The translations under genes were made by a program, and so were the position numbers. A model generated the notes under the pieces. That model worked only from the letters and a program-made list of their open reading frames with translations, was not told the origin of the DNA and did not search any database. From positions 1 through 60,348 of the forward strand of contig NZ_VUMI01000035.1 of the NCBI RefSeq assembly GCF_009696275.1: a DNA stretch of 60,348 nucleotides, given 5' to 3'. This stretch comes from Eisenbergiella porci. Its GTDB lineage: Bacteria > Bacillota > Clostridia > Lachnospirales > Lachnospiraceae. Of the stretch, positions 46,326 through 47,214 are shown piece after piece. Each line of letters begins with the position of its first letter. The first letter of the stretch is position 1.

Positions 46326-46566
46326 AGTGGGGGAGGGGCGGCCCCAGTCTCAAAAACGGGGTGTTTCTAACTGCGCCGGAAGGCCGGGATTGTGCCAAAG
46401 CGGCTGAAACTCCTCCGCAGCGACCCCTGTGTGCGGTGGCTGTATCTTAGTTGCTGTGGTCGTCTGCGTTCGTCAGACAAGCCGCAAAGGACGGCAAAAT
46501 CCCGGCCTTCCGGCGCAGTAAGAAACATCACCGTTTTTTCCAATGGAGCCGCTCCCTTCCCCCCAC
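46326..46566. repeat. Long inverted-repeat element A
   Basis: Arms 46364-46396 and 46493-46525 (33 nt each) are reverse complements with only two mismatches; the shared core contains CTGCGCCGGAAGGCCGGGAT. Weaker pairing extends outward through AAAACGG to a G-rich left arm (GTGGGGGAGGGG) and a C-rich right arm (CCTTCCCCCCACC). The centre has additional complementary words (GCGGCT/AGCCGC and CCGCA/TGCGG). Short reading frames exist in both directions, but they only reflect the palindrome. It is probably a dispersed non-coding repeat or a structured RNA; the family is unknown to me. Confidence 0.7.
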
Positions 46567-46788
46567 CTCCCCGCCCTGCCGCAGCCCTCCCAACCTCCCG
46601 CCGCCCCGTGAAACAGAAGAAAGGAACCGGGCCGGATGCGCTTATCCCTGAATACAGCGGCATTTGTTGAAAAAAGAATAATGAAACAAGTTAAAACTCC
46701 ATAAAATAAAATTACCTCCCTCCAGTCCTTTTTCTTTTTCTTCTATATAAAATACGGAAGCGTGCGGCGTCCTTTTCGTTACCTGCCG

Positions 46789-47081
46789 GCCCGGAGTATT
46801 TCCGGCGGTGTCTGGGGGAGGGGTTCCGGGGTGCGGGGCGGGCTGTGTTACAGGTGAGTCCCGAAAAAATGGAGATATTTCTTATCGCCCCGTTTTTTCA
46901 TGCTTCGCTCCGTTCCTAATGGCGCTGTTTGACGAACGAAGTGAGGAGTTTGCGCCATGTTGGAAGAAGCATGGAAAAACGGGACGATTAGAAATATCCC
47001 ATTTTTGAGGCCGAACCAGTAACACAGCCCGCCCCGCACCCCGGAACCCCTCCCCCAGACACCGCCGGAAATGCTCCGGGC
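46789..47081. repeat. Long inverted-repeat element B (giant hairpin)
   Basis: The outer arms 46789-46851 and 47019-47081 are reverse complements over 63 nt, with a single difference at 46797 that is a G-T wobble. After an irregular stretch an inner stem of about 34 bp continues (GATATTTC... to ...CATGCTTC, about 46874-46907 with 46966-46998), with few mismatches. A short ATGGCGC/GCGCCAT stem closes the loop. The whole 293 bp can fold as one hairpin with about 115 paired positions. No protein is credible in it. It ends 46 bp before the rimP promoter. Confidence 0.85.
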
Positions 47082-47126
47082 TTATCCACCCTCCCGAGAG
47101 GCCACCATACCCTCCGCATTTTGCAC

Positions 47127-47183: not shown

Positions 47184-47214
47184 AGAGTGGACTTCCGGTC
47201 CACTCTTCTTTATT
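47184..47214 (+). terminator. Attenuator-like hairpin in the rimP leader
   Basis: AGAGTGGAC (47184-47192) and GTCCACTCT (47198-47206) pair perfectly around TTCCG, then TCTTTATT. It lies about 22 nt after the predicted start, so it is a leader terminator. Regulation by NusA level would fit the operon but is inferred. Confidence 0.65.

Follow-up and report, generated by a model that had tools for sequence, protein, structure and literature searches.

A giant palindrome upstream of rimP in Eisenbergiella porci is probably a copy of a dispersed, REP-like hairpin element with conserved internal loops

Our results show that the giant palindrome at positions 46789-47081 of the window, the stretch of 60,348 nucleotides of Eisenbergiella porci DNA analyzed here, belongs to a real, multi-copy and patchily distributed family of hairpin elements that combine conserved internal loops with matched, fast-changing stems. 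On balance, the palindrome is probably a copy of a dispersed, non-autonomous, REP-like element that would be recognized as a folded strand and moved in trans, and whose arms would be matched to each other by template switching together with selection.

The palindrome, element A, lies on the minus strand if its sense strand is taken as the one that reads ACTCCTC...TCGTCAAACA. Repeat search and folding identified the two arms of its outer stem at 46789-46851 (3' arm on the sense strand) and 47019-47081 (5' arm). All 63 positions of these arms pair, with one T.G on the plus strand, as the earlier note had read from the letters. The repeat search gave somewhat longer arms at 46789-46876 and 46994-47081 (88 nt with 89% complementarity) as well as a distinct inner stem at 46866-46906 and 46966-47006 (41 nt with 85% complementarity), which corresponds to the inner stem of about 34 bp in that note. 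The core with its three loops and inner stems spans 46856-47010 on the minus strand, and scores 140 bits with a covariance model of which it is itself a training row. Its innermost module at 46926-46949, also on the minus strand, reads ACTCCTC - ACTTCGT - TCGTCAAACA and differs by one base from the consensus of the family, TCGTCAGACA. Folded as RNA, this region (311 nt) reached -238.3 kcal/mol, compared with -111.4 +/- 6.1 kcal/mol for shuffled sequences (z = -20.8), and 0 of 100 dinucleotide shuffles folded equally well. It is unlikely that the palindrome is an assembly artifact, as had been considered earlier, because similar palindromes are present in many records, including the complete chromosome of Anaerocolumna sp. 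AGMB13025, which has 28 exact motif copies.

Each copy of the family is an irregular hairpin of about 200-500 bp (199-506 bp among 91 elements), in which three conserved asymmetric internal loops are separated by stems. From the outside inwards, a locus-specific outer stem is followed by loop M1 (CTAA//TAAG, within the motif pair AAAAAcGGGGTaTTTCTAAC // GTAAGAAAtATCtCCgTTTTTT), a variable inner stem, loop M2 (CCAACG // CTAAGGGC), a short stem, loop M3 (AACTCCTC // TCGTCAGACA, so that the sense strand reads ACTCCTC...TCGTCAGACA) and a terminal stem-loop that varies in both sequence and length. Conservation of the loops is not absolute: the copy at L010 departs from the M3 letters and the copy at L012 from the M2 letters. 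The outer ends differ among subfamilies and even among orthologous copies, and there is no shared terminal inverted repeat. The 5' foot of the hairpin is often G-rich, with GTGG or GTAGGGG in some copies; GTGG occurs at the foot of some copies from Anaerocolumna and from the congener G001, while the foot is G-rich and variable in copies from the window's own genome (G000). By eye, the hairpins at L023, L087 and L112 have an extra outer motif of approximately ACATCTAMTCAGG in common, which we did not notice in other lineages. Several Anaerocolumna copies (L347, L354, L358, L360) are enclosed by a further outer stem near AACTTCGCAG//CTGCGAAGTT, which may belong to the element itself or be a hairpin that it prefers as a target.

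Tandem arrays crowd at the feet of the hairpins, with 50 calls within 200 bp, or 1.87 per kb compared to 0.55 per kb farther away, figures that count overlapping TRF calls and retain a raw intergenic bias. This would fit with replication trouble at these sites. At L007, L185, L188, L353, L357, L361 and L362 the arrays begin at most tens of bases from the foot of the hairpin; the array at L007 consists of 13 copies of a 13-bp unit.

Element A is located between a leftward gene for an SNF-family symporter and rimP, with both genes pointing away from it. About 250 bp to its left lies a second, related palindrome in the opposite orientation (46352-46537; fold z = -10.5). The core of this element B occupies 46348-46547 on the plus strand (161 bits, likewise a training row), and its M3 with a long variable terminal stem-loop lies at 46409-46479 (plus strand). 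An unscored comparison by eye with the copy at L013 places a probable remnant of its 3' outer arm at 46548-46650 (plus strand). Judged from its letters, element B looks decayed, because the partner of this arm is missing. Pairs in opposite orientation (+ then -), about 200-550 bp apart, are frequent among the copies, for example in the window (46348-46547 and 46856-47010) and elsewhere in G000 at C95:116868/117390, C106:58399/58937 and C73:31914/32133. At 47184-47206, 5' of rimP, the sequence GAGTGGACTTCCGGTCCACTC forms a short, perfect hairpin that is followed by a T-rich tail and is presumably the rimP leader; it is identical in G001 and the congener G012, while its letters are changed in G007. 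A simple scan found no sigma-70-like site adjoining rimP.

The palindrome is not a singleton. Window positions 46770-47100, used as a DNA query against the own genome, yielded 16 matches, of which two were element A itself on both strands. The other 14 lay in the core and reached into the outer arms by 28 bases at most; apart from each other, the arms had no longer match in the genome. When folded, most matching regions formed giant hairpins of the common plan, and two, L004 and L143, appear to be truncated. An exact M3 search found 25 places in this genome and none with the reversed control; both window elements escape this search, A by its one changed base and B by an over-long spacer.

Across the genus, the covariance model matched four of 13 genomes: G000 (77 matches), G001 (85) and the congeners G002 (23) and G011 (7), counts that take in both strands of one palindrome. 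The training rows came from G000 and G001; G002 and G011 supplied none. Among the matches listed, at least about 41 separate places can be told apart in G000 at a score of 80 bits or more, and at least about 43 in G001 at 108 bits or more. The model had no match in the other nine genomes, which include the one-contig genome G012. The copies in G002 appear as a divergent subtype, with 23 model matches and no exact M3 match. Crude gene calls around 146 places gave convergent neighbors in 33, divergent in 18, tandem in the same direction in 18 and tandem in the opposite direction in 33 cases, the rest being at record ends or within reading frames; the 17 places inside reading frames comprise some chance matches and some genuine copies of the own genome. 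Copies occur on both strands of the chromosome.

Comparison with relatives, for which five of the 12 prepared flank sets were searched with one genome per species, points to empty sites. In G012, the symporter gene and rimP are neighbors and both palindromes are absent, with a flank gap of about 125 bp compared to 900 bp here; G001 has a different gene upstream of rimP. At L009, both G012 and G001 carry a short, uninterrupted gene-to-gene sequence without a copy, where the own genome has, by eye, a 366-bp hairpin plus about 20 nt before and about 50 nt after it. Likewise, no hairpin of the family was seen by eye at the neighboring genes of L003 and L006 in either relative, and the copy at L007 is present in G001 and absent from G012. 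The flanks of L138 had a single weak match in the relatives.

Among the three ideas in the earlier note, a non-autonomous mobile repeat is thus the best supported, given the dispersed copies, patchiness and empty sites, but the element is not an ordinary MITE. The element resembles MITEs and other foldback elements in being non-autonomous, palindromic, present in many copies and absent from empty sites in relatives. Unlike MITEs, it is conserved in its middle and not at its ends, and has no subfamily-wide terminal inverted repeat, no established target duplication and no cognate transposase among the genes searched. Direct repeats of at least 7 bp flank five of 91 elements, compared with about 1.9 expected, which as a class is not clearly above chance. 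L134, L137 and L138 are suggestive of target duplication; at L138, an exact 10-bp direct repeat abuts both ends.

The genes next to the copies offered no candidate for a common mobilizing enzyme. When 397 neighboring reading frames were clustered, no shared transposase was recognized by eye in the 15 largest clusters, which consisted of hairpin-internal frames and ordinary genes. At 11 loci outside Lachnospiraceae, 12 of 20 neighbor proteins matched Pfam families without a common theme, mostly housekeeping ones, and 8 matched none. At L122 (G000 C122:20639-20995), an interrupted IS200-type transposase gene adjoins, by eye, a reverse transcriptase frame of the group II intron type. We also considered whether the palindromes survive by loss of SbcCD. 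SbcD is part of the nuclease that attacks long palindromes in E. coli. Tolerance does not stem from loss of this subunit, because all 20 genomes tested, whether they carry the element or not, have SbcD.

The pairing of the stems, which the earlier note had thought to be maintained, turned out to be even more strongly so. The core alignment comprised 34 sequences, of which the own genome supplied 24 and G001 the other 10; both window elements are among its rows. Rows were selected for the M1 letters and for at most one change per half of M3, so that the letter conservation of M1 and M3 is partly by construction, while the stems were unfiltered. In 36 of 47 consensus core pairs, at least one sequence had both sides changed, and 96.1% of the cells paired compared with 74.7% in shuffles. 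The covariation score was 0.586, compared to 0.164 +/- 0.010 in shuffled alignments and 0.10-0.17 when the partner was slid by 1-3 columns.

The mispairs that do occur are asymmetric. Read on the strand with M3, they were G.T in 73 and A.C in 29 cases in the outer stems (nominal binomial p 1.6e-5), and G.T in 48 and A.C in 19 cases in the inner stems (nominal p 5e-4), counted in 49 elements (47 with an outer stem) that are not independent copies and whose arms were aligned without an energy model. In a previous count, with the conserved motifs included, 84 elements had 255 G.T and 119 A.C mispairs. In addition, T and G are enriched in the 5' outer arm (TA 1004 vs AT 445; GC 1360 vs CG 1007). 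A replication-strand mutation bias is unlikely to have caused the G.T skew, because copies lie on both chromosome strands. Skew and arm asymmetry would fit with one strand that folds, as RNA or as single-stranded DNA, two options that the skew does not separate. A double-stranded RNA and a cruciform site, both raised in the earlier note, are possible.

Recent and orthologous copies indicate how the stems change. The own-genome copies at L133, L137 and L138 are 85.5-89.2% identical across 369-381 bp, outer stem included; the right arm of a fourth relative, L143, is missing. Each comparison of the three had 19-28 changed pairs, of which 12-19 were double changes that kept the pair, 2-9 were single breaks and none was a double break. 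Double changes outnumbered single ones in 6 of 6 comparisons of recent copies. Three orthologous places in the own genome and G001 carry copies in like orientation (L007/L185, L010/L186 and L012-/L084). Here, the cores are 68-83% identical in aligned columns and the 5' flanks 79-83% over 360-390 columns, with 85% and 77% for two of the 3' flanks and only 17 columns for the third. In contrast, the outer 5' arms of the orthologs align no better than shuffled arms (mean identity 0.71) or non-orthologous arms (0.72): 35 of 49 and 29 of 40 aligned columns were alike, and the third pair had only 5 aligned columns. These identities cover aligned columns alone (5 to 49 of 84-102), and were hence set against shuffled arms. 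Yet, each arm matches its own partner, with 0-5 mismatches in 83-101 columns for five of the six orthologous copies and 11 in 98 for L012-. Either the arms were rewritten as matched pairs, or a fresh copy entered the same place. The same place and orientation in all three pairs could reflect repeated insertion at a preferred site.

Beyond the genus, the innermost loop recurs patchily in other phyla, together with a terminal stem that covaries. A contig scan with the M3 pattern AACTCCTCNN{5,33}TTCGTCAGACA gave at least 105 stretches, many of which fold as hairpins while others are chance; by our own arithmetic about 50-60 chance matches were expected, and several of the listed loci are such. 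All 31 genomes picked as carriers matched, with 1 to 28 copies each and none for the reversed control, and some of the single matches (for example G090, G091 and G092) look like chance. The M3 letters are imposed by the exact pattern; the zero reversed controls and the complementary, changing spacer are support that is not imposed. In many of the 31 carriers, the spacer between the M3 halves forms a complementary stem of lineage-specific sequence. Genuine-looking sets were found in Lachnospiraceae (C. fimetarium, Anaerocolumna), Bacteroidales, Saccharibacteria and other Patescibacteria, and an Ignavibacteria MAG. The word TTAACG, also not imposed by the search, occurs in the flank to the right of M3 in 7 of 29 lineages compared to 0.4 in shuffles; five of these seven are Bacteroidales-type records. 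Most other short flank words were not clearly enriched (for example TAAC, 7 and 10 vs 6.9 and 7.4). Within Lachnospiraceae, the exact motif occurs in 7 of 397 genomes, of which we judged four genuine and three, with single matches, chance-like. In the family of the Bacteroidales-type genome G071, it occurs in 6 of 151 genomes, with three judged genuine and three chance-like.

The copy in the Ignavibacteria MAG (L090) is flanked by genes that match Phage_portal and Peptidase_S78 (prohead protease), the only sign of phage carriage seen. It probably lies within a prophage or phage contig, because the portal and prohead protease genes are on either side. A viral origin of the family was considered and rejected: the 83 exact-pattern stretches in viral contigs are the number expected by chance, and among the 15 that passed a loose folding filter none was convincing by eye. 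Searches with Eisenbergiella-type cores gave no match in plasmids (two queries) or phages (one query). In line with the earlier note, which recognized no described family, Rfam gave no match at the gathering score, and literature searches with the motif letters and the phenomenon found no description of the element; among the publications listed as matching the motif strings, none is, by title, about a bacterial repeat. The best Rfam hits at a relaxed threshold were the microRNA models MIR8670 (43.5 bits, cut-off 150) and MIR1437 (46.1 bits, cut-off 168), which we take as generic hairpin matches.

How might such an element work? We suggest that it is recognized as a folded single strand with the unpaired loops as marks, similar to the recognition of REPs by TnpA-REP and of attC sites by the integron integrase, and that a putative enzyme copies or moves it in trans. 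Integron attC sites are folded single strands recognized through unpaired features, and have a variable terminal structure. The element is like attC in being a hairpin with unpaired features; unlike attC, it lies outside gene-cassette arrays, and the attC boxes RYYYAAC/GTTRRRY were not seen in it by eye. The near-perfect, fast-changing stems would arise mainly from template switching during replication at the hairpin, which would copy one arm onto the other in a single event, while selection would weed out those events that destroy the loops or the ability of the stem to fold. Homogenization of arms by replication template switching has been described for other sequences in excerpts of PMC8794818, PMC8604942 and PMC7202029. 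According to the excerpt of PMC8794818 (Monttinen and Loytynoja 2022), copying of arm onto arm leaves multi-base compensatory changes and asymmetric base-pair frequencies, and an excerpt of PMC6649704 describes perfect coding palindromes in mitochondria of Nematomorpha. As far as these excerpts go, the element shares the long or perfect stems of those cases; they lie in genes, whereas ours is a dispersed intergenic repeat around conserved loops.

An alternative explanation is that selection alone keeps the stems paired, through fast ordinary mutation and compensation without any copying from arm to arm. Covariation is the expected outcome of selection on structure, G.U-type intermediates are over-represented, and one-sided changes do exist among recent copies. 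However, the outer arms of orthologs are randomized while their own mismatches amount to only 0-6% in five of six copies and 11% in the sixth, and double changes exceed single ones in every comparison of recent copies. We therefore consider selection alone unlikely, though with a real chance of being right. It is rather unlikely that the family is a multi-copy structured RNA, with a sense-strand transcript that binds a protein or small molecule through its loops and spreads by reverse transcription like a SINE. The excess of G.T (G.U) over A.C on one strand and the conserved loops inside covarying stems would agree with such an RNA, and so would the A-tract of M1, which faces a T-tract as in a terminator stem. 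Furthermore, the 80 nt that follow the hairpin in Eisenbergiella-type copies contain more purines than the 80 nt that precede it (0.63 vs 0.53), and tandem arrays are commoner 3' than 5' of the hairpin. Yet, copies are found on either strand and in all kinds of gene context, a promoter is not in evidence, and Rfam had no match at the gathering score. Near-perfect stems of about 100 bp would also be expected to be RNase III substrates.

Mobilization as a REP or REPIN by a RAYT, a Y1 tyrosine transposase of the TnpA-REP kind, is very unlikely in our view, and largely refuted already for the hosts tested. REP, BIME and REPIN sequences with their RAYT are likewise dispersed, intergenic, strand-specific imperfect hairpins, as far as excerpts of PMC8266576, PMC3733652 and PMC6006769 describe them, and the first of these indicates that stem irregularities matter to recognition by TnpA-REP, an equivalent of the recognition suggested here. 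Conserved stem irregularities and the G-rich 5' foot with GTGG/GTAGGGG in some copies add to this likeness. But the REPs in excerpts of PMC3733652 and PMC6006769 measure 20-65 nt, whereas our elements measure 199-506 bp, have three conserved internal loops and locus-specific stems, carry a weakly conserved foot tag and are not linked to a RAYT. The own genome has only three Y1_Tnp matches, all short or interrupted and none near a copy. No Y1_Tnp match was found in 11 of 28 carrier genomes, two of which (G001 and G079) look like one assembly, and the motif was near none of the 30 Y1 loci fetched out of 36 listed. G001 and G079, the record of Eisenbergiella tayi DSM 26961, have copies at identical positions. 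The element is most REP-like in its probable mode of action and yet, according to these tests, not a member of the REP family. An extremely unlikely possibility is that the palindromes are immobile sites for chromosomal folding or replication control (cruciforms) under host selection. They are intergenic, lie on both strands and have a strong structure. However, the element is not generally needed by its host, because 9 of 13 genus genomes have no model match and 390 of 397 family genomes lack the exact motif. Moreover, the halves of the Anaerocolumna chromosome showed no strand bias (6+/6- and 9+/7- by eye for the 28 positions, if the origin is taken to lie close to the beginning of the record).

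If the reading as a hairpin recognized while folded and matched by template switching is true, the family would offer a natural multi-copy test bed for the debated roles of selection and of copying from arm to arm in long matched stems, since conserved loops, randomized stems and alignable flanks lie side by side at many loci. It would also imply that some enzyme acts on folded hairpins in different phyla, and would show that giant palindromes persist in hosts having SbcD. More tentatively, the family may be a new class of mobile element spread over several phyla: a gene-free hairpin recognized by its loops, whose arms are rewritten pairwise, so that the memory of the stem is lost between sister species. 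In that case, the turnover of the stems would also conceal the element from similarity searches.
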